IMG/VR virus record: IMGVR_UViG_3300028557_000062
Location: 1-47,585 of that record
Strand: one strand, 5' to 3'
DNA from: a virus
Length of the DNA stretch: 47,585 bases
The notes beneath the pieces are model-generated. The model was given only the letters and a program-made list of their open reading frames with translations, ran no database searches and had not been told where the DNA came from. The translations under genes and the position numbers were made by a program. Within the stretch, counting starts at the first letter, position 1. Each line of letters begins with the position of its first letter. Shown here in pieces: positions 25,329 to 47,469 of the stretch.

Positions 25329-28300
25329 ATGATACAAACTAGTTTTTTAACAACTCCTTTAACAGGTAATGTATATGTAACAGATTTTACTTTTACAGAC
25401 CAAACTACTAGTGTTGCCCCTATTGCAACTCGTATATGGAGTTTTGGAGATCAAACATACACTTATAATACTATCTCTCCTACCCACGTATATACCTATC
25501 CAGGTGTATATACTGTTTCTTTAACTGCTACTGACACTTTAGGTAGTATCTACGTAGACACTCAAAATATAACAGTAGACTATGCTTTTAGAGATGCTTT
25601 ACAATTTTTAGAAATACCTGATAGCTATGCCAACCCGGGTGTAAGTACTTCAACAACCTTTAAAGTTGGTGTAACCTCTGCTCAAATAAATGTACCACTT
25701 ATTGTCAATCTTTTTGCAACAAACTCTAAATCTACCCCTTATCAATTTGTACCTGATAAGTGGAAATTCTTAACACCCACTTGGAGATTTCTAGATAAAA
25801 ATTACAATACTATTACATCTCTTTCTGTCGAAGCAGTACCTCTTTATGTAAATAATAAAGTTGCTGCGGTTTCCGGAGAAGTTGAATTTTATTATATCGA
25901 TGACTTATATTCTAGTCCCCCGAATGTATGTGGACCTCTTTTGCTTACAGCTACCCTTGAAACATCAGGGTTTATTTACCCTTTAGATTCTAAAATTTAC
26001 GACTATTTTAGTTATGCAAACAATAAAACAGTACGTACTGGTCTCTTGTGGCAGGTAAATAATATTTTACCTGATTATCTTAAAGTTTCAGAAAATTATA
26101 TAAATGATATTTACCCGCAAAAATGGAATGGAGTAAAAATACCGTTTACTGTTACATGTCAGAGTAGTAGAGCTAGTCTTTTATCAGGATCAGACTCTGC
26201 AGAATCCGGTATAATATTTTCTTACCCTGAGAGTAATAATTTAGGACTACAATCTAACATTTTTGTAAAACTATCAAATACTGATAATTTTACTGTTGAT
26301 GAAGCTCCCTTACACTTTAAAGCTACAGATGATAATGGATCTACAACTGGGGGTTTTATATTTACAACAATAACCCCGACAACCTCAATAGATACAACTA
26401 ACATTTTAGTCAGTACTGTAGCATATATAGACATTGATATTGAAACAAACAAATTTACTTACCCTGTTGGATATACACCCAACCCCTTTGTATGGGTATC
26501 AAATCCTGAACGCAACACCATAAATAGAGTTACTCTAGAGCCCTATTTTAATACTTGCCCCAGTATTAATGAGTATAAAAATAATAGAGTATTAGTAGAG
26601 GGGTATGTTAAAGCAATATCTGTACCTAAAGTTGAACTAAATACAACATATAATTATTCCATGTCTGGTTTTGCTGGTATATATGGTATGGCAATAGATC
26701 CAAGACGACATGAGCTTATTGCAACTGACGCTGAATTAGATCGTATTTATAAATTTTCTAGTCAGGGCTTACTCTTAAGCACTATAGAATTATCGAGTAT
26801 TACAGGCTATTCACCAGTAACAGGTGGACCCACCCCTTCTAATATAAGTATTGACGAAAATTATAACTTCTATGTATCATTGTTTAATGCAGTTTCAGTT
26901 TTAAAGTTTGATAAGGAATTTAATTATCTTTATACACTGACACCTTCAGGTATTGATATTGAAGAAATTATTAATGGGGATAATATTTTAAAACCCCCTA
27001 CTGTAGAAACAGATAGAGAAAATAATGTTTGGGTAACATACGCTTACCCACTTTGTAGTTTATTAGTAAAATATAATTCAACAGGGCAACCTATATTACA
27101 AATACCTTTAAGCTCATATATTATACCTGTAAGTATTGCCATTACCCCAGACAACAGTGTTTGGGTAGGTAATAATATTGTTACAACTGTTACACCCTCT
27201 ACTGCTGTACCTTTTCTAGTACAAGATACAATACTCAATTACATACCTGGCTACCAAATAACTACTGGTAATTTACAATTGTTTAGTGCTAATGGTACAC
27301 TTTTAAGTACTGTATCAGGATTTATAAACCCTAGCTATTTGGCATTAGATAGAAATAACAGTTTATGGTTCACTCACGGTATTCGCAATATTGGTTATAT
27401 TGATATAAACGGTAATACAGGTTCTTGGCGTGTCAATAATGAGTCTAATGAAGAACAAGTTAAATTTCAACCACTCGATGAGGTTTATATAGAAGATGAG
27501 TCAGTTATAGGTAGTGATCAAGAGCTAATAGTTTTAGACGCAGATGAAGAGCTAGGGGGTCTTGGAGTCGATGTTTACAATAGAGTTTGGGTTATTGATT
27601 CTTTAACTAATCTTGTTTATGCTTTTTCTGCTACTTCTACTATATCGAATGATCAAATTCAAATTGCAAAAATTTACCCTGATTCTACAATTGGTTATTT
27701 TAATAATTTAAACGATACCTTTACATACACTACTACAAGTGAATTTTTTAAATCCGCTCAAGCCAATGGCGACTGGACTGGTAACAGATGGTATCAAAAA
27801 TATTTTAGACCATCTGCAGTTTCTGCAATACCTTTATCAGGAATTTCTACTTCTTTTAGTATTAAACCATTTATTAATAACACAGAAATATACCGCATTA
27901 ATGAAAACTTTAATAATGCTAATTATTTTAAATCTCTTATACTACCTGACTCCCTAAATAAGAATACAAATTTACTTGATAATTTTTTCGGTGCAGCTGT
28001 AGGCACTAGTACACCTAGCGCTTATGAAGATCTGGGACAAATAGTTTATGAAAGAATTGCCAATTTTGTTTACAATCACACCGATGTAGATACCTGTAAT
28101 ATAGATCAACTTCTGTCTCTTGCTGATCAAATGGATGTTTTTGCTGCCAACTACGATTTAACGTTACCAAGCGAGATTAAAAAATATCTAGATATTGCAT
28201 CGATTTCTAAAAATAAACTTTGGGGTCTGAGATCCCCGATACCTCTTTCAGCTTTAAGTATTGGATCTAAACTAAACACTCGAACAGATTATATAACAGC

Positions 28301-28619
28301 TGGTACTTATATTTACCTACAAAGTAAGTTTGATTCAAAATATACGTTCTATCAAGTACCTCTATTGAGTAGTTCTACAATTTACCCGTTATCGTCATTA
28401 CAGGGTTACGGTTTTGTTCAGCCCGTATTAGCAAATTACCTTTTTTATAAATTTGTACCTAGATATACTGATAATTTTATTGAAAACTACATAGACTGGC
28501 AAAACCCCAATACTACCCTATCTCCCTATCTATCTACAACTATAGAGTGGTACGGAGATAACGGAGCTATTGAAACAGCATTTAACTATTTGTTAACTGA
28601 GAATCTAGTAGTTAAATAA
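25329..28619 (+). CDS. Large tail/baseplate protein: PKD domain and NHL-like propeller (gp7 position)
   Basis: This 1096-residue protein occupies the place of gp7 after gp6. It begins with a PKD/Ig-like domain (about residues 10-85): IWSFGDQTYTYNT, then HVYTYPGVYTVSLTATD. Residues about 90-430 are beta-rich and unassigned. From about 447 to 770 comes an NHL/SMP-30-like propeller with repeated (I/V/A)xxDxxxxxxV(S/T) units: GMAIDPRRHELIATD, ISIDENYNFYVSLF, VETDRENNVWVTYA, IAITPDNSVWVGNN, LALDRNNSLWFTHG and GVDVYNRVWVIDS. The C-terminal 240 residues are helical and beta mixed. T4 gp7 (1032 residues) also has an N-terminal Ig-like domain and a propeller-like body, so a gp7 equivalent is plausible, but sequence identity was not established. 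Confidence 0.7.
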   Translation: MIQTSFLTTPLTGNVYVTDFTFTDQTTSVAPIATRIWSFGDQTYTYNTISPTHVYTYPGVYTVSLTATDTLGSIYVDTQNITVDYAFRDALQFLEIPDSYANPGVSTSTTFKVGVTSAQINVPLIVNLFATNSKSTPYQFVPDKWKFLTPTWRFLDKNYNTITSLSVEAVPLYVNNKVAAVSGEVEFYYIDDLYSSPPNVCGPLLLTATLETSGFIYPLDSKIYDYFSYANNKTVRTGLLWQVNNILPDYLKVSENYINDIYPQKWNGVKIPFTVTCQSSRASLLSGSDSAESGIIFSYPESNNLGLQSNIFVKLSNTDNFTVDEAPLHFKATDDNGSTTGGFIFTTITPTTSIDTTNILVSTVAYIDIDIETNKFTYPVGYTPNPFVWVSNPERNTINRVTLEPYFNTCPSINEYKNNRVLVEGYVKAISVPKVELNTTYNYSMSGFAGIYGMAIDPRRHELIATDAELDRIYKFSSQGLLLSTIELSSITGYSPVTGGPTPSNISIDENYNFYVSLFNAVSVLKFDKEFNYLYTLTPSGIDIEEIINGDNILKPPTVETDRENNVWVTYAYPLCSLLVKYNSTGQPILQIPLSSYIIPVSIAITPDNSVWVGNNIVTTVTPSTAVPFLVQDTILNYIPGYQITTGNLQLFSANGTLLSTVSGFINPSYLALDRNNSLWFTHGIRNIGYIDINGNTGSWRVNNESNEEQVKFQPLDEVYIEDESVIGSDQELIVLDADEELGGLGVDVYNRVWVIDSLTNLVYAFSATSTISNDQIQIAKIYPDSTIGYFNNLNDTFTYTTTSEFFKSAQANGDWTGNRWYQKYFRPSAVSAIPLSGISTSFSIKPFINNTEIYRINENFNNANYFKSLILPDSLNKNTNLLDNFFGAAVGTSTPSAYEDLGQIVYERIANFVYNHTDVDTCNIDQLLSLADQMDVFAANYDLTLPSEIKKYLDIASISKNKLWGLRSPIPLSALSIGSKLNTRTDYITAGTYIYLQSKFDSKYTFYQVPLLSSSTIYPLSSLQGYGFVQPVLANYLFYKFVPRYTDNFIENYIDWQNPNTTLSPYLSTTIEWYGDNGAIETAFNYLLTENLVVK

Positions 28620-28636
28620 TAATATAACTATTAGCC

Positions 28637-31600
28637 GTGGCAATCAACACTCAACAGTTAAATTTGTTTTCAAAGCCTATTTCTCAAGCAACTTCTGCAA
28701 GAGATACGAATAGCCCTTTGTCTTATAAAGAGTGGTATACTTCATATACCGGCATAATACCCGGGCAAGAGCTAGCATTGTATAACTCATATCTGATAAA
28801 TTGGTATAATCAAAAAAAAGATCAGTACACATCTCTTACTACGCAAACTAGATTAAATTATCTAACTCTTTTAAAGCAATTACAAATTTTTTATTCTAAC
28901 GAAGAAGCTGAAAACTGGTACAGCCAGGTAAATTTAGATAGTGAAAAAGAATTATTAATAGCAATTCCTTATTTTGCAAAAAAATTAAAAGAAATAGCTC
29001 TTTATTATCTCAATATAAGAGAAGAAATAAAAAAGAATAAGATCAAATATAACGTTGTAGGCACTACCACCGGAGTTACACAAGAACTACAAGAACAATT
29101 ATTGACACTATTTACAAAGAGACCTAATCAAAGTGTATCTATACCGAGTAGTATTTGGACTAATATTTCCGAGCTTAGCTCTGTTAAAGATAATCTAGTT
29201 ATACAATTTGAAGAACTGTATGACGATCATGAATATTCTGATCAAAGTGCCACACTACCAGTCTCTGCTTACTACAATTTAGATAGTAAAAATTTAAAAG
29301 ATTTTTTTGAAACAAAAAATCTACCACTTACTGCTACTAACTGGATTTATAAGCAAGGTACATACGATATTAATGATGAGGAACTCACTTTTAATATTGA
29401 CCTTGCAACTCAGATCTTACAAAAATATATTGGAGAAAATAAATTTGCTGTTTCAACATCTACTCCAGCCCCTAGTTCTTCTACAGAGTTTTATGATATA
29501 GTTATATCGTCTGGTAATAACAATTTTTATTGGCCTAAGGGTGTTTACAAGCCTGACATTTCTACAGTTACTATATATAAACCTGTACCGCTGACAGCTT
29601 CAAATATACAAGACCTTGGGGTAGCAGGAGACTCTATTCTTAACTCTGACACTATATTTGTTAAAAGTGCTAAAGGTATTGAAGGAGCTTGGTTAAGATT
29701 TAAACAATACGATGAAACGGATGCAGCTGTTAATTCTTATATTGAAGGAAATAAAACAACCACATTTAAGTTCCCGTTTCCTGGTTTTGGTTTATCTGGA
29801 GAAGATATTGAATGGTCTGGCCCAAGCTTAAACTTCACAACTGAATATTCTTATTTAGAAACTGAAATAAAAGAAGCAATTAATGCTGCTTATTGGAATA
29901 CAGACACTAGCAACTTTCAAATAACCCCTATTAGTTTAAACTCTACAACTTTAATAGATTCTGGAGCTTATGCTAATGATTCATATTTACTTGCAGACAA
30001 AATAACAATTCGCCCTAACCCACCACTTTACGATTCTACTAATTACTCTGGGGAAATACAAGAAGCTTGGTTATATAAAATTACCAAAACAGATATACCT
30101 GTTAATATTGGTAATAGTGTTATTGTGTGGCCCTACCAGAGAGTTGATCCTAATGAACAATTTCCTTCTTATATACCCTCTAATATAAATACCGTTTGCG
30201 AGCCTTTAAATTTATCAAGCATACCGGTACCAGGGGCTACAAGTTCGAGATATCTATCGAGTGCTGATAAGATTTATAAAATTCAAAACTATACAGATAC
30301 AATAGATCTAGCAGTTGAATGTGCTTGGTTATCAGGAACAGAAGCTATTTATGAAAATCGCACCGGTGTTAGTCAGCCCAGTTTAAACGGAATATTTAAA
30401 TCAGGGGAATATAGTCGCTTTATTTGGGAGGGACCCGATCTAACAGATGCAGATTTAGTTTTTAAAACAATAAAACATCAACCTGATTGCACCTTCACGA
30501 CAACGGCTACTTCTTATAAAGATTTTAGTCTTTGTACATGCTATCAAACACTTTTTACTCCATTTGGACATTCAGGTACTGATTATGATGATAATAACAG
30601 AGTTGCTGATTTTATCGCAGAAGATCTAGTTCCGTTCGAAGCTTTTAACTTACTTAGTTGGCGAGATATTTTTAGTACAAATTATACGTCTAGCTCTGCT
30701 TTCGGATGGTATAGAACAAATAAAGAGATCGGATGGGGAGATGGCAGCTGGCGAACCGGTTCTTCCTTAGTAGACAACAAACTTTATCTTCGCTACGGTA
30801 AAACATATATATATTATCGAGCAAAAGATACATCTCTTAATAACACCTTACCTGAACTTGTCATTCGCTATCCTTATCTAAACCCTAGTGTAAAATGGAT
30901 GAAGGCCATTAAAAATGAAATTAATGAATGGGTTAGTACCGATAGTGAAGCCGATATGGTTATCCGCCCGGGCGATTTATTGATTTACGAAAAAACTGCT
31001 ACTACATCCTATGACTATATAAGTTCAAGTACTAATATACAAAACATTGGTCCTACAGCAGCTAATATTAATACAATATGGTCTGACTATAACTATGTAA
31101 CTATTGGAGCTAGTCAGTTTGGAATCCCTCAATCGGTTACAGTTTTTTATCCTACAGATATATTTACAGTTAATGGAGCGAGGGATGTTGATCTATCAAC
31201 AGATTACTCTCAATATCCATTTACTAATTATAATAATATTGTTAATGGTGTAGTTAACTGGAAGCTAACAGACCCGTTTAATCAGGAATATTTTATAAAC
31301 AATGTTGCCCGCTTTACATTCCAACCAAATGTAACTGGAGTTTATACAGTGATGTTAACTGCTATAACAGCAGCTAAAATTTTACCTGGAAAAACATACA
31401 CATCGACCGAGTCAGGGCTCATGATATTTTCAGATATACCTCCTATAACCGCTATTGATACTTATATAACTCAAACTACCAATTTAAGTACCTACAGTAT
31501 TATACGAAACGTTCCTGGGTTTGTTATTAACGCTCAACTATATGGGTGGAACTATAACACTAATAAGCCCGCATCTAACACTATTGGGGCTCGTCCCTAC

Positions 31601-33640
31601 TGGGCAAATAGCTCAACACTTTATCGAGATATAGATAGTTGGGGAACACCGTTTCGTTTAGTAGATAACTACAATATTGTAACTCAACCAATCATATCTG
31701 ATATACAGCTAAACGCAAATAATTTATTTGAATATGAACGCAAATATTCAACATCTTTTAGCTGGGTACAACCTATTAACTATAAAACTGAAGTTAATGA
31801 AAGTGTATGGTCTACAATTTATTTTAATACCACCGGAGCTTCAAATTTTGAACATATTTTAAACAATTTAACCAATCAATTAGTTGCTCGAGTATCTAAT
31901 GATACGTCGCCCATAATATTTCAAAATATTGTTAATAATCAACCCGTTGAAGTTTGGTATAAAGCTCTAAATTCTTTTATTTGGAATATAACAGCTGAAC
32001 CTTCCATTAACAGTGTAGTATATTCTAATCCAATTCCTGAATTAAGAATAGCTGCAGATAGACCTTGGAATAATCTAACAAATAGGTATTTTCCAAAATA
32101 TAATATCACTCCGGCATTAGACAGCCTTTACACAGAACAAGATAGAGGTGGTTTTTTCACCCCAAATAATTTAGGTATATCTACATATCTTAATAAAGAT
32201 TTTATAGGGGTTCTGCAGATCTCTTCTACTGCTTTATCTGGAGTTTTTGAAGATGCCTCTACAAGAGTTGGTGGTCGCGGTTTAACAAAAGCTGATCAAC
32301 CTACTCCATATACACAAGTCATAGAGAATAATATATGGTTAAAAGAGCCTATTGTATCAGGTCCTATTGCTGGTACAATAAAAAAACAAATAACTAAAAA
32401 ATATCAAAAGTTTATACCCTATCAATCCACATATGAAACTAACCCAAGGTCTCAGGTTGGTCTAATATTACCAACTAGTCGACAGACCCCTTGGGGTGCA
32501 GATCAAGATTTACTATGGACTGATACCGCCAATAAACCAGAAAGCTTTTCAGGGGTACCTAATGTAAGTGCATGGGGTCAATCTCAAATTCTTAAAAATA
32601 CCTCTAAGATGCTCACTAACTGGGTTACTGATATATTTGGTAACCAATACGGTTTATATAAAGATTTACAAGATTTGAATTCTTTTAGTAATCGGTACAC
32701 ACCAGGAGAGATTTGGATTAGAAAAAACTCTCAGTTTGTATCCCCTGCCCAAATAGCTTTAAGTGCAGTTTTTGATACCTATAAAGCTTATAACTTCTAT
32801 AATCAATTAACAGGAGACGGTGTTAGAAAAATAGACATGTTTTTTAATACTCTATATATTGAAACATCTAGTATTATTTTATTAGAAGATATTAATTTTA
32901 ATTATGAAACTGATAATATTTTTAGTATATCTGATAACTCCCGTCAGATACCTTTAATATATGCTTCTAATGATCAGAATATATCTCAAACCCTTCTTAC
33001 CCCCGCTTCTACAATACCGGTAATACCAGGAGACACATGGTTTTTCCCAGAAAATAAAAAAGTAATATTAACTGTTTGCGGATTAGATAATACAGTACTT
33101 TACCCGTTCTTATATGAATATAGTTTAATTAGTAAAGATTTAATTAAAGTATTTCCTAAAAATTTAAGTGACATAAACACGATTAACACTCTTAGTAGTT
33201 TAGATATACAGGTTATTGAGCCACCGGTTATCTCATACGATGAACTTAAAAAAGAATTTATTTTAACTATACTTGGTAGAAATACCAATAATAAAGACAA
33301 TATTATCGAAATTTCTATAAACAATTTACCTGATATGGTTTTAAACGATATAAATGTTTATACCCCTACAGAAACACTCTATAATAAGGTGCCACCTTTT
33401 GTTATAAGCCCTCTTTCTATATCTACTTCTGCAAATAATATATTTACCTATACGGTTTCAGCTTTAAATGAACCTAATACGTATACTTTACTAACAGCTA
33501 CTAATTGGGCATCAGTAAACAATTTCGGTGTATTCTCTCTTACTTCTCCATCATTAATTGGCAATTACTTTTTACCTTTTGTTGTAAGCAATAACATCGG
33601 GCCTACTTATTACTCCTTACATATAAACGTTACAGCATAA
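28637..33640 (+). CDS. Giant virion structural protein of unknown type
   Basis: This 1667-residue protein starts with GTG at 28637. Its first about 180 residues are helical and aromatic (SYKEWYTSYTGIIPGQELAL, NSYLINWYNQKK, a Lys-rich helix near 115-137), and the rest is beta-rich with many Tyr, Trp, Asn and Ser residues. A Trp-rich section near 700-730 includes GWYRTNKEIGWGDGSWRTG. A PKD-like unit ends in NVTGVYTVMLTAITAAK (about 900). Near residues 1270-1340 is a distinctive SRQTPWGADQDLLW, SAWGQSQILKNTSKM and TNWVTDIFGNQYGLYKD section. The last 80 residues resemble a cadherin/He_PIG-like Ig domain. There are no enzyme motifs. It belongs to the baseplate/tail-fibre block and is probably a tail periphery protein. 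Confidence 0.75.
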   Translation: MAINTQQLNLFSKPISQATSARDTNSPLSYKEWYTSYTGIIPGQELALYNSYLINWYNQKKDQYTSLTTQTRLNYLTLLKQLQIFYSNEEAENWYSQVNLDSEKELLIAIPYFAKKLKEIALYYLNIREEIKKNKIKYNVVGTTTGVTQELQEQLLTLFTKRPNQSVSIPSSIWTNISELSSVKDNLVIQFEELYDDHEYSDQSATLPVSAYYNLDSKNLKDFFETKNLPLTATNWIYKQGTYDINDEELTFNIDLATQILQKYIGENKFAVSTSTPAPSSSTEFYDIVISSGNNNFYWPKGVYKPDISTVTIYKPVPLTASNIQDLGVAGDSILNSDTIFVKSAKGIEGAWLRFKQYDETDAAVNSYIEGNKTTTFKFPFPGFGLSGEDIEWSGPSLNFTTEYSYLETEIKEAINAAYWNTDTSNFQITPISLNSTTLIDSGAYANDSYLLADKITIRPNPPLYDSTNYSGEIQEAWLYKITKTDIPVNIGNSVIVWPYQRVDPNEQFPSYIPSNINTVCEPLNLSSIPVPGATSSRYLSSADKIYKIQNYTDTIDLAVECAWLSGTEAIYENRTGVSQPSLNGIFKSGEYSRFIWEGPDLTDADLVFKTIKHQPDCTFTTTATSYKDFSLCTCYQTLFTPFGHSGTDYDDNNRVADFIAEDLVPFEAFNLLSWRDIFSTNYTSSSAFGWYRTNKEIGWGDGSWRTGSSLVDNKLYLRYGKTYIYYRAKDTSLNNTLPELVIRYPYLNPSVKWMKAIKNEINEWVSTDSEADMVIRPGDLLIYEKTATTSYDYISSSTNIQNIGPTAANINTIWSDYNYVTIGASQFGIPQSVTVFYPTDIFTVNGARDVDLSTDYSQYPFTNYNNIVNGVVNWKLTDPFNQEYFINNVARFTFQPNVTGVYTVMLTAITAAKILPGKTYTSTESGLMIFSDIPPITAIDTYITQTTNLSTYSIIRNVPGFVINAQLYGWNYNTNKPASNTIGARPYWANSSTLYRDIDSWGTPFRLVDNYNIVTQPIISDIQLNANNLFEYERKYSTSFSWVQPINYKTEVNESVWSTIYFNTTGASNFEHILNNLTNQLVARVSNDTSPIIFQNIVNNQPVEVWYKALNSFIWNITAEPSINSVVYSNPIPELRIAADRPWNNLTNRYFPKYNITPALDSLYTEQDRGGFFTPNNLGISTYLNKDFIGVLQISSTALSGVFEDASTRVGGRGLTKADQPTPYTQVIENNIWLKEPIVSGPIAGTIKKQITKKYQKFIPYQSTYETNPRSQVGLILPTSRQTPWGADQDLLWTDTANKPESFSGVPNVSAWGQSQILKNTSKMLTNWVTDIFGNQYGLYKDLQDLNSFSNRYTPGEIWIRKNSQFVSPAQIALSAVFDTYKAYNFYNQLTGDGVRKIDMFFNTLYIETSSIILLEDINFNYETDNIFSISDNSRQIPLIYASNDQNISQTLLTPASTIPVIPGDTWFFPENKKVILTVCGLDNTVLYPFLYEYSLISKDLIKVFPKNLSDINTINTLSSLDIQVIEPPVISYDELKKEFILTILGRNTNNKDNIIEISINNLPDMVLNDINVYTPTETLYNKVPPFVISPLSISTSANNIFTYTVSALNEPNTYTLLTATNWASVNNFGVFSLTSPSLIGNYFLPFVVSNNIGPTYYSLHINVTA

Positions 33641-33641
33641 T

Positions 33642-34967: not shown

Positions 34968-34993
34968 CCTAAAACAACTATTAAATATTACAA

Positions 34994-35923: not shown

Positions 35924-38379
35924 TGAACAATTTTAATCAAAGAAAATACTATAAAATTTTTTCAGGTTCTAATCAAACGGGCGGTTATGATAAAATTCAT
36001 TTAGGTTATGAATCTGAAACAGCTGAAATTATTTTAAAAAAAGATAAAACTACCTCTTTTCATGTACCGTTTTTTAGCTCTATAAAAGATTTGATACCTG
36101 AACAAATTATAGGGGACGGTGCTGTACCCGGACCCATACCCGCTATGGCGGATCGTATTTTTCAAAAACAGAGCGGTTATGGCCAAACTACACCATGGGG
36201 ATCTACAACCGGGCCAGCAGACGGTAAATGGCTGTGTAGTTGGTTGTATTCTCTTTCAGGTGAAACCCCTCAGTGGTTAGACCGTTATTATAACCCAGGT
36301 CGAATAACTTATGATGAAGCCTTTAAGGGAGAAATAACCCCTGAAGGGTATAAAAAGAATGACCCGGTTTTTATAGATACGCCATCCTCTATGAAAATAG
36401 AGCCAGGGGTTTATTATCAGTATTTTCATAATGGTGAAAAAACAGCACAAGAAATAGTTAATACCTTTGCTGGTAATGATAGCTCTCATTTAAGATTAGA
36501 TCTCGATACTTGGACTAGTATACCGCCCGATAAATCAATTTATAATAATCAAGTGTTTATTAATAATTTTAAAGACGCGTGGTCTATAGATCTAAAGGAG
36601 CCTGATGTAATAGATAGAAATGCTTTAAATTTTAAAAATAATAATTTTATAGATGCACGAGTCACTTATTCTGATAATTACAATTTATCTAATGAATTTA
36701 CTATTAATTTTTGGATACAAGAAGATAATTGGGACAACGCTACCAGCACTCAGTTAGTTGGCAATTTTAATTACGGAGGCTATGGCATTTTTTATAATAA
36801 TTTAAAAAACTATCCATTTTTTGTAATACCGGAAACATTTTATGGACATCTTTTTTTCTTTAATCAAGAAGGTAACAACTATTTAGATAAAAGCACTCAG
36901 CCAGTTATAACCAATATAGATACTCCTTTATTAAGTGGCTCTAGCTCCCCTATAAAAGTTGCTATTAACGGAGAAGAAGAGCTAGTTGTTATTGACACCG
37001 GGGTACTCAACAGTGTCTATAAAGTTAATCACTTAGGAGACATTTTAGCTATACCTAGAACCTCTAGCGGTACACCTTTAGTTATTATCGGAAATTTAAA
37101 AGATCTTATTATAGATAAAAACAATAGTTGTTATATTATAACGACAACTAGTACTTACTTTTTTGATAAAAATTTAACTCTTATAAGTTTATCTGCTGAT
37201 AGACCTTATATTGATAACAAAAAATTTGCATATGACATTAACGGTATCTTACAAGAAGAAATATGCTTAGATTTTAAATTTGATAATTTAAACAATAAAT
37301 GGGTTATTAATTTGCAAGGAGATCTTTTTTTTAATAATCAGCAAATAATCAATATAACAGACTGTACAAGTCTAGCTATTGACCCGATGAATAATATATG
37401 GGTTTTATATGATAGAAATAAAATTGTAAAATATAACGCTGAAACTTTATTACCAACAGCTACTTACGAAGTAGGTTTAAATGCCAATAATGGAGTACGT
37501 AACTTAAGCTTTATTAGTAGTTATGATCGAAATACAAATACTCAAACTTGGTATGCTCTTGCCTATTATAGCGACGATCAAATATTATATCAACTAACAC
37601 TAAACGGAGAAATTAAACAACTCACCTTTATACCAGATAAAATTAATATTGAGCAGTCTCCACCAGCTCAACAAGACAAGAGCCTTCTTAAATTTTCTGC
37701 AACCGGAGATTTTACAGGTTACGAATGGAAGCGGATATTTAATAATGTGCTTTATGGTAATACCCCACAAATACAATTTAAAATTGCAGCTCAAACATCT
37801 ATAAAAAATACCCCACTAACCACTTTTACAGTATCGGTTCCAGTTCAATATTTTTCTGACAATACATGGCATTTAGTAACCTGTACATATGAAAATCAAA
37901 CAATGAAGGTTTATATAGATACTAGATTAAGAGACCAATTAACTCTACCTGGCACGTATAATTTAAGTTATGTAAGAAAAAATGATCTTTATATTGGTAC
38001 CCCAAGTGGTAAGTTTACAAATCTTAATATTGAACTTAACTCAAAAGCATTAATATTTAACGGCTATATTGACAATATTAAAATATACGATTATGCTCTT
38101 AAACCAGAAAGTTTACAGCTGTTTTTAAGGTCTCGCTTTATAGGCCAAGATCTAACTTGGAACCTGCCTACAGCCCCACTGCAGTATATAGAAGGTATAG
38201 ATAGATTTTTTAAGCATAAGTTACCAGGATCTAAAAGTACCTTTTTTAAGTTAAAATTATCAGGCCTACAAATAAAGGACCCGGGTACACGTAAAACAGT
38301 AGAGGCTTTTATAAAAAACGCCATACAACAAACAAAACCAGCTTATACAGAGTTATTACATATAGAATGGGTAGAGTAA
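35923..38379 (+). CDS. Tail protein with LamG-like domain split by an NHL-like propeller
   Basis: This 818-residue protein has four parts. Residues 1-210 are a unique N-terminal domain including ADGKWLCSWLYSLSGETPQW and LDRYYNPGRITY. Residues about 220-296 begin a LamG/concanavalin-like fold (NEFTINFWIQEDNWDN, GGYGIFYNN). Residues about 306-572 contain propeller-like units such as SLAIDPMNNIWVLYDRNKIV and DLIIDKNNSCYIITT. The LamG fold resumes at about 600-733 with YFSDNTWHLVTCTYENQTMK, VYIDTRLRDQLTLPG, DLYIGTPSG and FNGYIDNIKIYDYALKPE. The C-terminal 85 residues (RFFKHKLPGSKSTFFKLKLS, ending LLHIEWVE) look like an attachment domain. LamG domains commonly bind glycans, so a receptor or surface-binding role is inferred. 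Confidence 0.75.
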   Translation: MNNFNQRKYYKIFSGSNQTGGYDKIHLGYESETAEIILKKDKTTSFHVPFFSSIKDLIPEQIIGDGAVPGPIPAMADRIFQKQSGYGQTTPWGSTTGPADGKWLCSWLYSLSGETPQWLDRYYNPGRITYDEAFKGEITPEGYKKNDPVFIDTPSSMKIEPGVYYQYFHNGEKTAQEIVNTFAGNDSSHLRLDLDTWTSIPPDKSIYNNQVFINNFKDAWSIDLKEPDVIDRNALNFKNNNFIDARVTYSDNYNLSNEFTINFWIQEDNWDNATSTQLVGNFNYGGYGIFYNNLKNYPFFVIPETFYGHLFFFNQEGNNYLDKSTQPVITNIDTPLLSGSSSPIKVAINGEEELVVIDTGVLNSVYKVNHLGDILAIPRTSSGTPLVIIGNLKDLIIDKNNSCYIITTTSTYFFDKNLTLISLSADRPYIDNKKFAYDINGILQEEICLDFKFDNLNNKWVINLQGDLFFNNQQIINITDCTSLAIDPMNNIWVLYDRNKIVKYNAETLLPTATYEVGLNANNGVRNLSFISSYDRNTNTQTWYALAYYSDDQILYQLTLNGEIKQLTFIPDKINIEQSPPAQQDKSLLKFSATGDFTGYEWKRIFNNVLYGNTPQIQFKIAAQTSIKNTPLTTFTVSVPVQYFSDNTWHLVTCTYENQTMKVYIDTRLRDQLTLPGTYNLSYVRKNDLYIGTPSGKFTNLNIELNSKALIFNGYIDNIKIYDYALKPESLQLFLRSRFIGQDLTWNLPTAPLQYIEGIDRFFKHKLPGSKSTFFKLKLSGLQIKDPGTRKTVEAFIKNAIQQTKPAYTELLHIEWVE

Positions 38380-38424
38380 TAAAAAATCTTTGTATTTTTA
38401 ATTTTCAACCGTTAAATAATCTAA

Positions 38425-41400
38425 ATGGCTCTTGGTGCAATAACAGTTAGTGCAGTCCGCTTTGATAACGAACCGTTTGTAAGATCGTTAACTGCGACAA
38501 TATTGCCAGGCACTGGTACAGTACCCTTTGGTACAGAAACTGTTGCTTGGCTTTATAGTGATGAGGTCTGGGCTGTTACAAAAACCGGTCAAAGTTATGT
38601 ATCTGAAACAACTGGAACATACACTCAATTAAGTACAGTTTATTTTTATGTTTCTACTGATACATACGATTTTCGAGTAGCATCCTATGATTTATTTGAG
38701 CAAGTAATTTTAGCAGTATATTTAGACCCAGTTCCTAATATTTTTTCTTCAGATAGTGTACAGATCATATACGACAATTTCCCTAATATTCAAGTACCGA
38801 CTTTGTATTTTAATAATGAAAATACAAATTTTTCATCATTATTTTATAGAGAAAAAAGACCTCAGTATACTTTTAATTTAAGCGCAACTGTCGAGGAATC
38901 TTTTATTAACCCAACAAATTATCTACTTTCAAGTGAAAGTTTTAATAGCTGGACAATACAAAAAAATATAACAGCTACTAAACAAGGGCAGTTATCTCAA
39001 GACGGGGAATCATTAGCTACACTACTTATACCTATTAGTACAAGCATTTTTAACACAATAGGTTCTATTTCTAATTTTAATAATATATTAGGTACAACCC
39101 CTCACCCACCAGGTACGTATACCGTTGGGCCAACCGGTTACACTGTTTTTGGTAATGGACAAAACGCAGTTTTTGATATAAAAGTTACTAGCGCTAGCGC
39201 TGTATCAGCAATTGAAATTTTAAATGGAGGTCAGAATTTTAGTCCAGGAGATCTTATAACTATTAATAATTCGATTTTTAATTTAGAAACAGATACTTAC
39301 CCGATCAGCTTTGAAGTAGAAAATATTTTAAATGTAAATCATGAATTAGGACAAAATGTCTATCTAGACCCCGATACCTATACATACTCTGTTTTTGTTT
39401 ATCCGTTGAGTGGTAAGTATGTATATCTTAAGGGCTTTAATAAAGGAGAGGTTATTTTTGATATTGAGCAAGGTCTGTCATATCCAAATGGAAATTGGTT
39501 AAATAGTACAGTAGATTTTGTTGATACGAGTTTACCTATCTTTAACCCTTTAGGTGTAGGTTTTAACGACGTAGTTCGTTCTGTAGTTGTATCAAGTGAT
39601 CGAATTTTTGTAGGAGGAGACTTTACCTCTTATAATAATATACCAGTAAATCGTTTTATATGTTTAGATAGAGACGGTGTACCAGTACCAACATTCACTG
39701 TCGGCTCTGGGTTTGATAGTAGTGTACGAGTTATAACACCGTCCCAGGACGGTTCAAGTTTATTTGTCGGGGGAGATTTTACAGAATATAGTGGTATAAG
39801 TGCAGGTCGTATTATTAGTATAAATGCTTCTACGGGAGATGCCCTTCCGGGTTTAACCGCGCTTCCGGGCTTAACAGGGTTAGGGTTTAATGATCAAGTT
39901 TTAAGTATAGCAGTATCTGGCACTAATTTATTTGTTGGAGGAGCATTTACAGAATATAGAGACGTTTCTTCTAACAGAATAATTTGCTTACAAAGTGAAG
40001 ATGGAGCAGTAAATTCTAATTTTATAACCGATTCCGGATTTAACGATATTGTTAGAACTATTGCTGTTGATTCATCAAATAATCGTGTTTACGTTGGGGG
40101 GGACTTTACACAATATAAAACTACTACTACAAAGGTACAAAGAATTATCTGTCTTAATAGAGTAGGAAGTTATGTCAGTGGCTTTACGCCAAATACTTCG
40201 GCTTTTGATGATTCTGTTTTTGCTTTAAAATTAGATAGTGCTAATAAAGTACTGGTAGGTGGTAGTTTTACTAATTACGATAAAATTAATAGAAGAGGGA
40301 TTGCTCGTCTTTTAACAACAGGGAAAACAGATGCAGCCTTTAATCCCGGAAACGGGTTTGAATATGAAGCCGGCTCTACAACAAGAGCAACAGTTAAAAG
40401 TATTACAATCGATCCAGTAGATACAAATATATATGTTGGAGGTACCTTTACTGTTTATAATAATGAGCCTAATAATAAAGGTATAATTTCATTAACCCCT
40501 ACAGGTTCAAAAAATATCGACTTTAATAATAGCAACCTATACTCTACACTAGAGCTTGAAGATTTAGCATTAACTATAGAATTATTAAGTAATTCGATAT
40601 TTGTAGGTGGAGCGTTTAATTTAATAAGAACTATACCTATAGGGAGATTAGTAGAATTAAACAAAACCGGTACTATACCAACACTAACTATAACAGAAAA
40701 CCGTTTTCAGTTATGGAGACGCTGCACTGCTACTTTTTCTCTATCAGATGGAGACAATTATGATGCTTATATTGGCATAACTACAAATACAGAAAGCGTA
40801 TCATCAGCAACTACAGGAACTGAAACACTACTTATTTGGGGTAGTCAAATTAATAGAGGGCAAGCTAGTACTTTTGCCCCCTATATATCAACTCTTCATG
40901 TACCAAGAACTGTAAAATATAATGATACTTGGATTTCATTTAATAATAGTAATATAAAAGCTGGTACTGTACCTCTTACTTCAACAATTTATTCTGCTCT
41001 TTGTAGCTTTAATACCCCAACCCCCACTGTTTGCAGTATTAATATTACCCTATCAGCTAGATCTACCTTTGATTCCTTTTCACCTTGGTTTACACCACAT
41101 ATAGTAACAAATAGTTTAACCGGTGTGTTTCTACAAAAAATGCTAACCGCAGACTTTATAGGTTTCCCTGTAAACTATTTTGATTCATTTGGAAGACAGA
41201 TTACTGATTTAAATTTTGTAACTGAAACATACACGACGTCTCCCGGTTTATGTTTTTATGGAGAGGGTCATACCGAGGTTATAAAACTTTCTGCAAAAAA
41301 TCAAACAGATATTAGTAGCTACTACTGGACAATAGGCAATGAAGATACAAGTTTTTATGATATATCAGCAATTGATTCTATTAATGGGCTTTTCCAGATA

Positions 41401-44316
41401 ACTGTTTCAAGTGCTATCGGGAATTACCCTACTATACCTATAAACTTATTAATAAGTGATGGTACGATTCTTTCTTCTGGTCCTTTTTATTACTTAGATG
41501 ATAATACCGGGGAGCAATTATCATACCCATTTTTTTATACTACAGAGAATAATTCTAAAAATACAAACTTAAAAGACTCTATAAAGATAGTAGGCTTTGA
41601 AACTCCAGCTTCTGCATTTAATCCAGGTATTGTCGGAGATAATATATTTTTACCTGCAGACGGGGCACCCGTTTTATATGATGCATTTTTAAAGGTGTCT
41701 TTATCAGGTTTTAAAGGTGAAATTTTAGATTCATGTTACGATAAATACAACTTAATTTGGAGATGGTCTACGTTTACTGGGTGCACCGCAAACCCAACAA
41801 GTTTTATAGGACTACCTTCAGCTTGGTCTACGATGCAATGTCTATATTCAGCAGGGTCCTTACCCTCTATGACAGCTACACCTGTTACTGCAGAGCCCGG
41901 TCCGTTTACTAAGACTTGGAAGCCAGAAGGAACATCTAATCTTTCTGCAGAAAGATCGCCCTTTTTTTGTTTTGGTTCTAATATTCTTTGGACTTTATCT
42001 ACACAAAGATGGACAATTAATCAATCTAACCCTGGGGATATAACAAATTACACATATCCGTTACAATATCTTAACAACGGTTCCCTACCTACTACTATAG
42101 ATATTAATGCTAATACTCGTCTATTAGTACGTGGTGAACAAATAGTAACCTGTACTATTTCATCTCCTCCATTCGATTGGGGCCTTAAAGAATTTATTAT
42201 TTCTGAAGACAGTGCTTTTACAATACTTTCTCGTGGTAATTTTAGCTTTTATTTGTCTAACAAATATATTTTAACAGGAACAGCAATCACCTTTGAAAAT
42301 ATTTCCAGAGGTTTTAATAATGTTCAAAGTATTATTATTGATCTCGGAGAAGCTAATAGTATAACTCTAACCCCTGAAACTTTGTATCAGAATTTTACAG
42401 CTACATATAATTCAGTTGGACCTAAAACTATTACTGTTACAACTTATTATCAACCTAGCGCAAGTTTATCCCCCTCTATAGATATTTTTAGTAATGTAAT
42501 TAATGTTATACCTTTTTATGATAGTGTTATTCCTGAAAATTATCTTACCGAGAGTACACCTTTAAATTTACCGTATCCTGAAAAACCTTTAATAGCTTCA
42601 AACGAATGGGCTGTTGAAGATAATATCAATTCTGTATTTCGTAAGTTTTACGAAAATTTACAATACCTTGAAACCAGAAGCAACATGTATGAATACACTC
42701 CAACAGAGTATTATGGCTGGCTTGGTAATATACCCTTAGAAAGTCAAGTTAAAGAAGAAATGAATGAAGTATGTCCTTTATGGACATGGGTAGACGTTGA
42801 TTGCTTAGAGAGCGACGAGATTGTACATTGGGAAGATACACAAATAGTTAGTGATGCAACCCCCTCTATAACTACCACAGGACCATTAGCTAGTTGTGGT
42901 ACGTGGCAGCAACATCAATGCAGCCTTAATATAGTTAACCCTGATTGTTACGGTAATTATGGAATAGAATGGAAATGGAAATCACGTAAAGCTGCAGCTT
43001 CTACAAAATTAATAACATGGAAAACTACAAAATGTAATGAAGCTTATGCAAAAAAATGGAAATTTGAACCTTGGATTACTCAAAACGGAGAAACCATAAC
43101 AGGTATACCGTGTGTTATTGGAGAGTGGCATGTTAATATTCCAAAAATTGATACGTTTAGAGATCCAATTCCAAGCTGTAAACCCTTAACTAGATGTAGT
43201 TATAGGGATATTGTAAGTAGGAATAATATTCTTTATGTTGCTTTAAATACTGAAATAAAAATTTTATCCTCTAATTACTCTCCGATACAAATAACTAACA
43301 AGCGTTTAATAGATGATGTATTTTCTTTTAGAAATATTAAAGCTATTGGACTCGATTCTACAGACAAACTTTTTGTATTAGACGGAACACTAAATAAGAT
43401 AGCATCATATAAAGTAGATTTAACGCAGTCGATACCGTTTGAAAATTATCTATCCTGGGGTGGCTTCGGTTCAAAAAAATCAACCTCAAAATTTTCAAGA
43501 CCTAACGACTTACATATTGATGCTGAGGATAATATTTGGATAACTGACACCGGTAATAACTGTATTAAACAATACTCAAATAACGGTAGCTGGCTTCAAA
43601 CTATTACTAATGAAATTTTAGACAATAATCCACCTATTAGTATGTGTGTAGATAGTGCTAATAGTTTACACGTATTAACAAACAAAAGTGTGTATGTATT
43701 TTCTAATCGAGGGGAATTTGTAAATGAATATTCGTTTTTAGACGAGGCAACAGAAACCCCTCTAAGAATTACTACAAGCTATAATAGAGAGGTCATTTAT
43801 ATTAATACACCATCACAAGTTATAAAATATTTTAGAAATGGGGTATTTTTTGGATTTTTAGCAAACAATCTGCAATGTGTCACAAACATTAGCAGTGTTT
43901 ATCAGGATGAATATCGAAACACATTGATAGCTTCTGAAGATAAAATAGTCAAGTATGTTGATTTAATGACCACTAAGAGCATAAAGGGCAATCTACCAAC
44001 TACATACAGAACTTTAACAGATTTACTTATTCACAAAGAAGAGTACATACAAAGCTGGGTATATACAAGATCGTTTCAAAAATTGTGGGATAATATTGAG
44101 ATATTTAGGCATGCATTAATTTTTGATAATAGTAATCTCTGCAAACAATATGTGCCCCCTGTACACAATAAAAATAAACTTACAGTTGGACAAAACGAAA
44201 TTGTTACATCTTCTGTTATTAATAGAAATATTAACTATCTTTGGGATAATTTTTTAACATTGCTAAATTATTTTGATCCAAAATGTATACAATCAATTGA
44301 AGAAAAAAACTTATAA
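38425..44316 (+). CDS. Giant adhesin-like tail protein with delta-60 and NHL propellers
   Basis: This 1963-residue protein is the largest in the window. Residues 1-375 are beta-rich. Residues about 377-748 are a seven-copy delta-60 repeat region with (I/L/V)(F/Y/L)VGG(D/A/S/T)F(T/N)xY in each copy. Residues about 940-1400 hold Ig/PKD-like parts and a Cys/Trp module (C1104). About 1450-1565 has two more Cys/Trp modules (C1450 degenerate, C1508). About 1595-1850 is an NHL-like propeller (KAIGLDSTDKLFVLDG, NDLHIDAEDNIWITDTGNNC, MCVDSANSLHVLT). Helical segments INSVFRKFYENLQYLETRSN, FQKLWDNIEIFRHAL and INYLWDNFLTLLNYF surround that propeller. It is probably a long tail-fibre or baseplate-adhesin protein; no catalytic motif was seen. 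Confidence 0.75.
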   Translation: MALGAITVSAVRFDNEPFVRSLTATILPGTGTVPFGTETVAWLYSDEVWAVTKTGQSYVSETTGTYTQLSTVYFYVSTDTYDFRVASYDLFEQVILAVYLDPVPNIFSSDSVQIIYDNFPNIQVPTLYFNNENTNFSSLFYREKRPQYTFNLSATVEESFINPTNYLLSSESFNSWTIQKNITATKQGQLSQDGESLATLLIPISTSIFNTIGSISNFNNILGTTPHPPGTYTVGPTGYTVFGNGQNAVFDIKVTSASAVSAIEILNGGQNFSPGDLITINNSIFNLETDTYPISFEVENILNVNHELGQNVYLDPDTYTYSVFVYPLSGKYVYLKGFNKGEVIFDIEQGLSYPNGNWLNSTVDFVDTSLPIFNPLGVGFNDVVRSVVVSSDRIFVGGDFTSYNNIPVNRFICLDRDGVPVPTFTVGSGFDSSVRVITPSQDGSSLFVGGDFTEYSGISAGRIISINASTGDALPGLTALPGLTGLGFNDQVLSIAVSGTNLFVGGAFTEYRDVSSNRIICLQSEDGAVNSNFITDSGFNDIVRTIAVDSSNNRVYVGGDFTQYKTTTTKVQRIICLNRVGSYVSGFTPNTSAFDDSVFALKLDSANKVLVGGSFTNYDKINRRGIARLLTTGKTDAAFNPGNGFEYEAGSTTRATVKSITIDPVDTNIYVGGTFTVYNNEPNNKGIISLTPTGSKNIDFNNSNLYSTLELEDLALTIELLSNSIFVGGAFNLIRTIPIGRLVELNKTGTIPTLTITENRFQLWRRCTATFSLSDGDNYDAYIGITTNTESVSSATTGTETLLIWGSQINRGQASTFAPYISTLHVPRTVKYNDTWISFNNSNIKAGTVPLTSTIYSALCSFNTPTPTVCSINITLSARSTFDSFSPWFTPHIVTNSLTGVFLQKMLTADFIGFPVNYFDSFGRQITDLNFVTETYTTSPGLCFYGEGHTEVIKLSAKNQTDISSYYWTIGNEDTSFYDISAIDSINGLFQITVSSAIGNYPTIPINLLISDGTILSSGPFYYLDDNTGEQLSYPFFYTTENNSKNTNLKDSIKIVGFETPASAFNPGIVGDNIFLPADGAPVLYDAFLKVSLSGFKGEILDSCYDKYNLIWRWSTFTGCTANPTSFIGLPSAWSTMQCLYSAGSLPSMTATPVTAEPGPFTKTWKPEGTSNLSAERSPFFCFGSNILWTLSTQRWTINQSNPGDITNYTYPLQYLNNGSLPTTIDINANTRLLVRGEQIVTCTISSPPFDWGLKEFIISEDSAFTILSRGNFSFYLSNKYILTGTAITFENISRGFNNVQSIIIDLGEANSITLTPETLYQNFTATYNSVGPKTITVTTYYQPSASLSPSIDIFSNVINVIPFYDSVIPENYLTESTPLNLPYPEKPLIASNEWAVEDNINSVFRKFYENLQYLETRSNMYEYTPTEYYGWLGNIPLESQVKEEMNEVCPLWTWVDVDCLESDEIVHWEDTQIVSDATPSITTTGPLASCGTWQQHQCSLNIVNPDCYGNYGIEWKWKSRKAAASTKLITWKTTKCNEAYAKKWKFEPWITQNGETITGIPCVIGEWHVNIPKIDTFRDPIPSCKPLTRCSYRDIVSRNNILYVALNTEIKILSSNYSPIQITNKRLIDDVFSFRNIKAIGLDSTDKLFVLDGTLNKIASYKVDLTQSIPFENYLSWGGFGSKKSTSKFSRPNDLHIDAEDNIWITDTGNNCIKQYSNNGSWLQTITNEILDNNPPISMCVDSANSLHVLTNKSVYVFSNRGEFVNEYSFLDEATETPLRITTSYNREVIYINTPSQVIKYFRNGVFFGFLANNLQCVTNISSVYQDEYRNTLIASEDKIVKYVDLMTTKSIKGNLPTTYRTLTDLLIHKEEYIQSWVYTRSFQKLWDNIEIFRHALIFDNSNLCKQYVPPVHNKNKLTVGQNEIVTSSVINRNINYLWDNFLTLLNYFDPKCIQSIEEKNL
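39553..40668 (+). repeat. Seven delta-60-type propeller repeats
   Basis: The encoded repeats are about 53-60 residues apart. Each contains FN(D/x)xVxxxxVxxxxxxxVGGxFTxY and usually an RIxxLxxxG segment. VGG sequences are encoded near 39614, 39767, 39935, 40094, 40256, 40436 and 40604. Seven copies fit one closed seven-bladed beta-propeller. Repeats are clear at protein level but diverged in DNA. Confidence 0.8.
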
Positions 44317-44345
44317 AAGTAATACCTTTTAAAGTATTATTTTTA
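44315..44345 (+). terminator. Weak AT-rich hairpin terminator candidate
   Basis: TAATAC (44320-44325) and GTATTA (44334-44339) are perfect inverted repeats around CTTTTAAA, extendable by A-T pairs and followed by TTTTT. The element starts at the stop codon of the giant gene and lies in an 83-base gap. The low GC content of the stem makes it a weak intrinsic terminator at best. Confidence 0.4.
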
Positions 44346-44399
44346 CAATATGAACAATGTAGTAATTATAAAAATAGATATTAAATAATAAACAAAGAT

Positions 44400-46121
44400 A
44401 TGGCGCGTGTTGAAACTACCACTATTCAAAAAACAGAATGTATTGGCAATTCTTTAATTACTATTAATAGCAATTTTGATAATCTTAAAAATGCTATTAA
44501 CACTCTTCAGACCGGTATTGCTTTACAAGATGAGACAGTGCAATTAAGCACTAATATAGAAACTATAAATTTTGTAGGCGCTGGAGTAAACACTATTATA
44601 GAAAACGGTATAGCAAATATCAATATACCCGGTAATGAACCACTTAAGGTAGCTCGATTAGAGGAGCAAGGTATAAATTCCGGTGGTGGTAAAAATAATT
44701 TTTTTATATTAAACGACGGTTCAATGAGAGTCTGTGGCTTTAATGCTAATGGAAGTTTAGGAACCGGTCTAGGGGATGTTCGTGTATATACTCCAAAAAT
44801 ACCTGCTTTCAACCCCCCTCTCGAGGTAGACGAGAGTATAGCTAAGTTACAAACACAAGGAGATTGTACATACGCTATTACAACTAAGGGTCGACTATAT
44901 GGTGCTGGTTATAATGCTCAGGGACAGTTAGGACAAGGCAACACTGTAGCTTTTTATACTGTGTTTAGTTTTATAGATGTAACGGGTAACGGTTATACCG
45001 CGGCACCTAATGACCCTATAACCCACATATCAACTGGTACAGGCTTTCAATTTACTTTTACTACAATATTTGCATTAACAAAATCTGGCAACCTTTATGC
45101 TTGGGGTTATAATAATTTAAGTCAAGCAGGAATCTCTCAAAGACAGACCGGTAACACAATAACGGTACCTCGCCCCGTTTCAAATCTCGGGATAAGAGGT
45201 CGTTTAGTTACTTCTGGCGGCAATAGAAATGCTACTACCACTTTTGTTGTTGATAGCGACGATAAGCTTTATGTTGTAGGCCGTAATGCCGATGGACAAG
45301 CAGGTATTAATGACAATACAGGCCCAGAAATTAATATAAGTAATTTTACACTTGTTCAAGGTCTACCTTCTGGGTATCGGGTTAACAATATTCGAGTCGG
45401 TGGAACGGCTGATAACATTACCACCTTTGTAATATTAAAAGATGGAACACTATGGGCAGCTGGAAGAAACACCAATGGGGTAGTGTTCGGAAACGCAACA
45501 ACGTCTCCTGCTAATCAAATCTCTTTTACAAGAGTTTCTGGATTTACAGACGCAGATTATGTTGTAGACGTTGTTGCACATATAGATGCAAACTCTGTTA
45601 CTTGCTGGGCACTTATAAGAGACGGAGATTTTTACAGGTTAAAAAGTTGGGGTAACGACTCTTTTGGGCAAATGGGCGTTGATAGTGTTGCAACAACAAG
45701 AGGGGTAGTATCTAGTATTAATTGGCCCTGGATAAGAAGTGGGGCTAAAGTAAAGCAAATAGTTGTTGCAGGTGCAGGTACTGCAAAAACAACACTTGTT
45801 CTAGATACAAATAACTATTTATGGGCAGCTGGTTATGGTGGTACAGGCTTATTAGGTAACGGTACACTCACTGTTACAAATAATACATTTCGAAGAGTGC
45901 TTTTTAATCCAGCTCTAGGTACCCCTGTTGAAATTAGAAGCACTAATAATGACTTCGGCCGTCCACCGCCTGGCCGTGGTTATATTGCTAACTTTTTAGT
46001 ATTATTAAATACTGGAAAAGTTCTTGGCTGGGGATACGACAACGTAAGTTCAGGTCAACTCGGCGTAGATGCTTTTCCTGAGATTACTACTATACCTAGC
46101 ATTGTACAAATTAAAAATTAA
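44400..46121 (+). CDS. RCC1-type propeller tail fibre protein
   Basis: This 573-residue protein begins with the shared anchor motif, TECIGNSLITINSNFDNLKN (residues 12-31), then a probable trimeric coiled section to about 90. The rest is an RCC1/ATS1-like beta-propeller. It has eight units with the pattern G(x)L(Y/W)xxGxNxxGQLG: MRVCGFNANGSLGTG, LYGAGYNAQGQLGQG, LYAWGYNNLSQAGIS, LYVVGRNADGQAGIN, LWAAGRNTNGVVFGN, LKSWGNDSFGQMGVD, LWAAGYGGTGLLGNG and LGWGYDNVSSGQLGVD. RCC1 folds are best known from eukaryotes, where they bind proteins. Here, joined to a phage anchor and placed among tail genes, it is likely a receptor-binding fibre tip. No chromatin role is implied. Confidence 0.85.
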   Translation: MARVETTTIQKTECIGNSLITINSNFDNLKNAINTLQTGIALQDETVQLSTNIETINFVGAGVNTIIENGIANINIPGNEPLKVARLEEQGINSGGGKNNFFILNDGSMRVCGFNANGSLGTGLGDVRVYTPKIPAFNPPLEVDESIAKLQTQGDCTYAITTKGRLYGAGYNAQGQLGQGNTVAFYTVFSFIDVTGNGYTAAPNDPITHISTGTGFQFTFTTIFALTKSGNLYAWGYNNLSQAGISQRQTGNTITVPRPVSNLGIRGRLVTSGGNRNATTTFVVDSDDKLYVVGRNADGQAGINDNTGPEINISNFTLVQGLPSGYRVNNIRVGGTADNITTFVILKDGTLWAAGRNTNGVVFGNATTSPANQISFTRVSGFTDADYVVDVVAHIDANSVTCWALIRDGDFYRLKSWGNDSFGQMGVDSVATTRGVVSSINWPWIRSGAKVKQIVVAGAGTAKTTLVLDTNNYLWAAGYGGTGLLGNGTLTVTNNTFRRVLFNPALGTPVEIRSTNNDFGRPPPGRGYIANFLVLLNTGKVLGWGYDNVSSGQLGVDAFPEITTIPSIVQIKN

Positions 46122-46131
46122 ATTATAATAT

Positions 46132-46620
46132 ATGAGCTTCTTTACTACAACAATAGATGAAAATCAATGCATTGGAGACTCTCTTGAAACTCTTAATGCT
46201 AATTTTAGTGCTTTAGATACAGCTACACTTAATCTTTATACAGCACCGGTTGTAGCGTTTACTTGCGAAAGAAACGGAACTGGCACTCAAAATCAATTTA
46301 TGAGTTTTGGTAGTGGTGCAACTCAACATGAAGGAACATGTATGCCCTTTGCGGGTAAAATTATCTCTGCTACTTTACAGGTTTACGGAGTTACTGGTAC
46401 AGTTACAACAGACCCTTGTGTTAACGGTGTAGCGCAACAAGAGTATAGACTTACAACTACCGGTATTAATTTAACTGGTAATAATATTCGGTATTACACT
46501 GCTCCGCAACTGTTGTTTAATGTTGGAGATAGGTTAGGGTGGAAGCAGGTAGGTATACCCTCCTCTGCAAACTGTTATAATGTAACATTTATAGTAGAGT
46601 TTAGCGGTGTACAAATATAA
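46132..46620 (+). CDS. Small tail fibre/receptor-binding protein with shared anchor
   Basis: This 162-residue protein starts with NQCIGDSLETLNANFSALDT (11-30), the anchor motif shared with the proteins at 19763 and 44400. The rest is a compact beta-sandwich-like domain: PVVAFTCERNGTGTQNQFMS, ATQHEGTCMPFAGKIISATL, QVYGVTGTVTTD, GDRLGWKQVGIPSS and NVTFIVEFSG. The Cys residues at about 45, 70, 89 and 149 could pair. The overall plan, a short anchor followed by a small globular head, fits a minor fibre or receptor-binding protein. The head resembles the C-terminal heads of phage fibres in general, but no named family is claimed. Confidence 0.7.
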   Translation: MSFFTTTIDENQCIGDSLETLNANFSALDTATLNLYTAPVVAFTCERNGTGTQNQFMSFGSGATQHEGTCMPFAGKIISATLQVYGVTGTVTTDPCVNGVAQQEYRLTTTGINLTGNNIRYYTAPQLLFNVGDRLGWKQVGIPSSANCYNVTFIVEFSGVQI

Positions 46621-47447: not shown

Positions 47448-47469
47448 TAACTATTTACAGAATTAATAG

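Follow-up and report, generated by a model that had tools for sequence, protein, structure and literature searches.

Gene layout of the locus

The window analysed in this work is the 47,585-base IMG/VR virus record IMGVR_UViG_3300028557_000062, a genome fragment. At positions 25329-46620, eight uninterrupted same-strand open reading frames (ORFs), designated P1 to P8 and totalling 7,029 amino acids (aa), were found directly after the genes of gp25 and gp6, which by their sequences are clearly T4-type baseplate wedge proteins. These eight genes are referred to below as the block. An original prediction, made before any database search, had described the block as seven genes encoding about 6,000 residues; its coordinates were correct, but both counts were too low. 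The features of the region are as follows.

22987..23484, + strand: gp25-type baseplate wedge protein / sheath initiator (phrog_261, 4e-25), syntenic in relatives
23488..25320, + strand: gp6-type baseplate wedge protein, 610 aa (phrog_219, 3e-40; 98.8% probability to T4 gp6 in comparison of hidden Markov model profiles, HMM-HMM)
25329..28619, + strand: P1, 1096 aa; PKD/Ig string at 1-345, removable NHL-type propeller at ~400-830, conserved alpha/beta C-terminal domain at 854-1096
28637..33640, + strand: P2, 1667 aa; both the N-terminal part (helix-like by inspection) and the C-terminal part conserved, matching no known family
33642..34967, + strand: P3, 441 aa; PKD domain, Cys/Trp modules at 125-163 and 166-206
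34994..35923, + strand: P4, 309 aa; kept in close relatives at 39-49% identity, matching no family
35923..38379, + strand: P5, 818 aa; conserved N-terminal domain at 1-200, LamG split by an NHL-like propeller, conserved C-terminal domain at 735-818
38425..44316, + strand: P6, 1963 aa; DUF5122 propeller at ~375-741, Cys/Trp modules at 1104-1168 and 1508-1548, NHL propeller at ~1640-1840, conserved C-terminal part
44400..46121, + strand: P7, 573 aa; N-terminal tag (TECIGNSLITINSNF, ~12-30) and RCC1 propeller, putative exchangeable fibre/spike slot
46132..46620, + strand: P8, 162 aa; tag as in P7 and a small unrelated body
46659..47447, + strand: P9, 262 aa; charged product of the next gene, conserved at 40-70% in relatives, outside the block and probably the start of the head module
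47468..47491, no strand assigned: strong terminator-like hairpin that closes the gene run

Domains of the block proteins

The original prediction had listed PKD domains in two or three proteins, NHL-like propellers in three, a delta-60 and an RCC1 propeller, a split LamG fold and Cys/Trp modules, and nearly all of these were recovered. PKD domains were found with Pfam in P1 (5.7e-10, 39.6 bits) and in P3 (3e-9, 37.2 bits), in both cases above the cut-off of 27; a PKD-like third copy, in P6, was weak (41% probability, HMM-HMM). In the PDB, a P1-family profile comprising 43 relatives matched Pizza/PknD propellers (9e-19) as well as PKD domains of collagenases (1.6e-17). The three NHL-like propellers are those of P1, P5 and P6: the P6 propeller was detected with Pfam NHL (1.1e-5) and by matching of the P6 profile to NHL propellers in the PDB (5e-10), and in HMM-HMM comparison the middle of P5 resembled the P1 propeller (97% probability, 2e-11), as did P6 (94%). 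The delta-60 (DUF5122) propeller of P6 (2.7e-19, 69.6 bits against 27) and the RCC1 propeller of P7 (1e-21 to 8e-40; RCC1_2 76.5 bits against 22, RCC1 49.5 bits against 21.7) both exceeded the Pfam cut-offs. Laminin_G_3 was found in P5 in two stretches (1.1e-13, 52.1 bits against 27.6), and the alignment placed the propeller between them.

The Cys/Trp module, with the pattern C.G.[YF]...W.W...TW..T...Y.K.W..E, occurs twice in P3 and twice in P6 (1e-6 to 3e-16 after iteration); two copies were counted in each of the listed P3 homologues and one to four in P6 homologues. The module had no Pfam match in the P3 and P6 proteins and was otherwise confined, recurring only in homologues of these two proteins and in one P1. 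It may mediate contact between P3 and P6. P3 was also found to be homologous to the C-terminal part of P6 by HMM-HMM comparison. DNA-level repeats were considered as an explanation of the block and were rejected, just two short arrays of low score being found.

Relatives and conservation of gene order

At least 80 related loci, all on uncultured contigs, were collected from IMG/VR. The best cultured relative of gp6 was 29% identical, with none above ~30%, and a tblastn search of 50,697 phage records returned no cultured relatives of P1, P2, P3, P5 or P9. The order gp25-gp6-P1-P2 was syntenic in nearly all loci (~80 contigs), and the order P3-P9 was kept in five closer contigs (G004, G005, G006, G009 and G012), which are arranged gp25-gp6-P1-P2-[P3 and accessory genes]-P4-P5-P6-[tag genes]-P9. 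The accessory genes that relatives carry between P3 and P4 belong to PHROG tail fibre families (E-values down to 5.9e-53). The length of P2 in relatives ranges from 749 to 2106 aa. In two loci, L010 and L020, P9 stands directly after gp6 and a propeller-less P1, and P2-P8 are missing from that place; their close relative L016/G006 retains P2-P8.

High domain turnover in the block, together with the lack of cultured relatives for P1, P2, P3 and P5, would suit cargo or hypervariable surface-like genes with no role in the virion, encoding, for example, proteins secreted or displayed on the cell surface during infection. The conserved protein ends are under strong constraint, however, the order is kept between the baseplate genes and P9, there are no intergenic gaps of gene length, and a single terminator closes the run. 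Such a cargo function is therefore considered very improbable.

A search for a relative among bacterial genomes, made with the host in mind, found none. A cyanobacterial host was considered through psbA; the gene was found in 0 of 19 records, which, as fragments, need not carry it. Shine-Dalgarno-like motifs were compared among the window genes and contigs G004, G009, G012, G014, L037 and L039. They were found upstream of 0 of 33 window genes (7% at random) and of about half of the genes in the L045/L037/L039 subclade; this contrast within the clade suggests that the hosts may differ in kind. Bacteroidota are poor in Shine-Dalgarno motifs, and the host of the window virus may be similarly poor in them.

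Modularity of P1

The ends of P1 are fixed, and the propeller is absent at the same place from the copies in L010, L016 and L020 and from that in L054. The gp6 tree forces at least two independent changes to account for the presence and absence of this propeller. Other P1 copies contain an insert of ~250 aa at residue 496 or a phrog_677 domain at residue 304, and one (L035) contains a BNR-like stretch at ~1012. In the L035 protein, BNR/sortilin-like repeats (weak, 0.0017) lie at ~940-1120 within the C-terminal domain and mark a third site of propeller-type insertion. It may be concluded from these losses and insertions that the ends are the constant part of P1 and that the propellers are optional. 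Such turnover suggests that baseplate proteins can swap outer domains without disturbing the core.

The putative docking tag and the P7/P8 slot

The N-termini of P7 and P8 carry a common tag of ~25 residues, C-I-G-[DN]-S-L-x-x-[IL]-N-x-N-F. In relatives, P6 is followed by one to three tag-bearing proteins with unrelated bodies. The tag was found in 20 of 1,264 contig proteins, always starting at residues 11-27, and in 0 of 20 shuffles. When the tag proteins were compared pairwise, 176 of 190 pairs matched in the first 45 residues and 9 of 190 in the remainder, on E-values that come from a very small database and are hence generous.

The bodies identified behind the tag are of four kinds. The RCC1 propeller of P7 has a counterpart in a G004 protein that aligns over its length with P7; a pectate-lyase fold is present in G009 (Pect-lyase PF12708, 1.8e-14), an S74-chaperone fibre in G004 (Peptidase_S74, 4.8e-11) and a collar domain in G011 (Collar, 8.6e-20). 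Because pectate-lyase, S74 and collar bodies occupy this slot, it appears to be a fibre or spike port, and an adhesive role, which the original prediction had only inferred, is now supported by genomic context. Of the evidence for that role, the tag slot, which the original prediction had not mentioned, is the strongest. The tag may also be used as a query to collect receptor-binding proteins missed by ordinary annotation, such as RCC1 proteins named 'chromosome condensation'.

The same slot bears on the possibility that the block encodes head or neck decoration or whisker proteins that lie beside the baseplate genes by chance. Phage heads often bear Ig and PKD domains, Ig-type folds being found on heads as well as tails; P9, the gene that follows, probably begins the head module, and a head outer capsid protein is among the fold matches of P1, although weakly. 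However, the fibre or spike bodies in the tag slot and the close linkage to gp25-gp6, kept in synteny across a divergent clade, both point to the tail. Decoration of the head or neck is thus regarded as improbable.

T4 periphery proteins and the gp7 role

The block families were compared by HMM-HMM with the families of T4 gp5, gp6, gp7, gp8, gp9, gp10, gp11, gp12, gp53 and wac. No block protein exceeded 5% probability to any of these families, gp7-gp12, gp53 and wac included, whereas gp6 matched gp6 at 98.8%; similarity to the gp7 profile was absent both from whole block proteins and from their split domains. In the window and 15 related records, PF07880 (gp9/10 N-terminal) had no match, with a T4 control giving two, and PF09215 (gp8) had none either, no known positive phage having been tried for it. 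The original observation that no T4-like gp8-gp12 is recognizable in the block thus held for P1-P9. No collar-type (gp10_C/gp12) domain was found in P1-P9, and the only match, a sub-threshold one, was to the gene at 19763-20332, which encodes a 189-aa collar/Gp10_C-like fibre protein 2.7 kb upstream of gp25, outside the block. Its collar/Gp10_C score was below the Pfam cut-offs, and its PHROG tail fibre match was 2.8e-39. The window is therefore probably not free of gp10/gp12-type domains. Next to this gene, on the opposite strand, is a gene for ribonucleotide reductase.

These results bear on whether P1 (or P2) could be a very diverged T4 gp7, with P2, P4 and P5 being diverged gp8, gp10 and gp53 with extra domains, so that the block would reflect drift rather than a new periphery. 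P1 directly follows gp6, as gp7 does in T4; the ends of P1, P2 and P5 are conserved clade-wide; and T4, the type VI secretion system (T6SS) and other contractile systems are described as sharing a well-conserved (gp6)2-gp7 wedge (PMC10457771). However, P1, P2, P4 and P5 reached at most ~1% probability to T4 gp7, gp8, gp10 and gp53, against 98.8% for gp6. A P1 orthologue of 621 aa that lacks the propeller was modelled with AlphaFold (predicted local distance difference test, pLDDT, 86) as an Ig-like string followed by the alpha/beta C-terminal domain. The best Foldseek matches of this model in the PDB were Ig, cadherin and S-layer strings; among viral models, only a PKD protein from an uncultured phage of the Caudovirales matched it over a similar extent (3e-33). 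The C-terminal domain of P1, the one domain folded by itself with the helix-turn-helix core bundle and trifurcation fold of gp7/gpI in view (pLDDT 81), had no PDB match at E<=1e-3. Such drift is therefore considered rather unlikely.

Three further resemblances were followed up and gained no support. The motif 'LP..L...DTC...L.SLA' in the C-terminal domain of P1 resembles gpI of phage P2 by eye, but neither HMM-HMM comparison nor the fold supported a gp7/gpI assignment; gpI was compared as a single sequence, and this comparison is weak since the gpI scan returned only near-identical sequences. The N-terminal helices of P2 looked like the core bundle of gp6, and this likeness failed in HMM-HMM comparison. 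For the C-terminus of P5 ('KPAYTEL..IEW'), considered as TIGR02242/gpI, NCBIfam and Pfam gave no match, and TIGR02242/gpI was not found in the window.

Because a gp7-like partner belongs to the known contractile wedges, one of P1, P2 and P5 may still fill the gp7 role, perhaps as a gp7 preserved in structure, and these proteins raise the question of which one does so. The profile comparisons nevertheless support the view that the T4 periphery genes are unrecognizable here and that the proteins in their place are composed of propeller, Ig and lectin modules.

Proposed organization of the host-contact apparatus

Taken together, the data make it likely that this uncultured T4-like myovirus encodes its outer baseplate and host-contact module in the block, as scaffolds and as tag-docked receptor-binding P7 and P8. 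P1, P2, P5 and P6 are likely to be large structural scaffolds added to the conserved gp25-gp6 wedge, since the clade as a whole has kept their ends (those of P6 chiefly at the C-terminus). In the virion they would expose optional inserted propeller, Ig and LamG domains. The original prediction of a periphery built from propeller modules is thus borne out as to the modules themselves, but the conserved ends of these four proteins and the removable propeller of P1 indicate that the block is more than a set of propellers. P7 and P8 would be fibre- or spike-like receptor-binding proteins docked through the common tag, so that one port would accept different exchangeable bodies: an RCC1 propeller, a pectate-lyase spike, an S74 fibre or a collar fibre.

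Several points weigh against this organization. P1-P6 could belong to the wedge structure and play no part in adhesion, and the tag pairs rest on the generous E-values mentioned above. The arrangement in G011 differs, with the P3-P6/tag part ~40 kb from P1-P2 and on the other strand, so adjacency of the two parts is not obligatory. Finally, the authors of the phage phAPEC6 study take its RCC1 proteins as possible DNA-ordering or DNA-condensing proteins (PMC7247149).

A broader proposal is offered tentatively, with more doubt than confidence: the lineage may have replaced T4 gp7-gp12 by unrelated scaffolds (P1, P2, P5 and P6) that accept and lose whole domains, and may have acquired a common tag through which any domain, even an RCC1 propeller, becomes an adhesin that can be exchanged on one port. 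These phages probably use the modular block to build and vary the parts that grip the cell, and the block provides a testable map of the host-contact apparatus for a whole clade of uncultured myoviruses.

Comparison with known systems

Propellers at the baseplate, and giant proteins other than gp7 behind gp6, are already known elsewhere. As in the T4 series gp6-gp7-gp8-gp9-gp10-gp11-gp12, a gp6 homologue stands first in a run of same-strand genes, and the run stops short of the next structural module. The IN.NF core of the tag resembles the KIN.NF..Y of the gp10 and gp9 N-termini, the best two of 12 profiles at only 11% and 5% probability; the tag was accordingly rejected as a proven gp9/gp10 homologue, and the likeness was kept as a hint. 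Unlike T4, the block contains no recognizable gp7-gp12 or gp53, and PF07880 and PF09215 are absent from all 16 records.

In pelagimyophages and cyanomyophages, T4 gp7 has been reported absent, and proteins with recognition domains are encoded in the baseplate operon (PMC7029224). In baseplate operons of Kyanoviridae and pelagimyophages, giant proteins (VrlC) take the place of gp7, and in cyanophage records giants of 3,500-4,300 aa follow gp6; the block in the window is instead divided among many separate proteins. VrlC and the cyanophage giants were rejected as relatives: the P1-P9 profiles showed no similarity to the giants, to VriC or to their gp8, and the only match was the YHYH domain common to the cyanophage giants and a G023 block protein (L158:5302-8850). 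This 1183-aa block neighbour carries YHYH and RCC1 domains.

Propellers are located at the baseplate periphery in phi11 Gp45 and phiKZ gp131C, where receptor binding was shown or proposed (PMC4901313). Those propellers belong to other families; the propellers of the block are loop inserts in scaffolds or stand behind the tag. RCC1-type proteins ('DNA condensation proteins') were detected by mass spectrometry in phAPEC6 virions; the available part of that report describes neither a tag nor a baseplate context for them (PMC7247149), whereas in the window the RCC1 propeller of P7 follows the tag in a gene run headed by gp25 and gp6.

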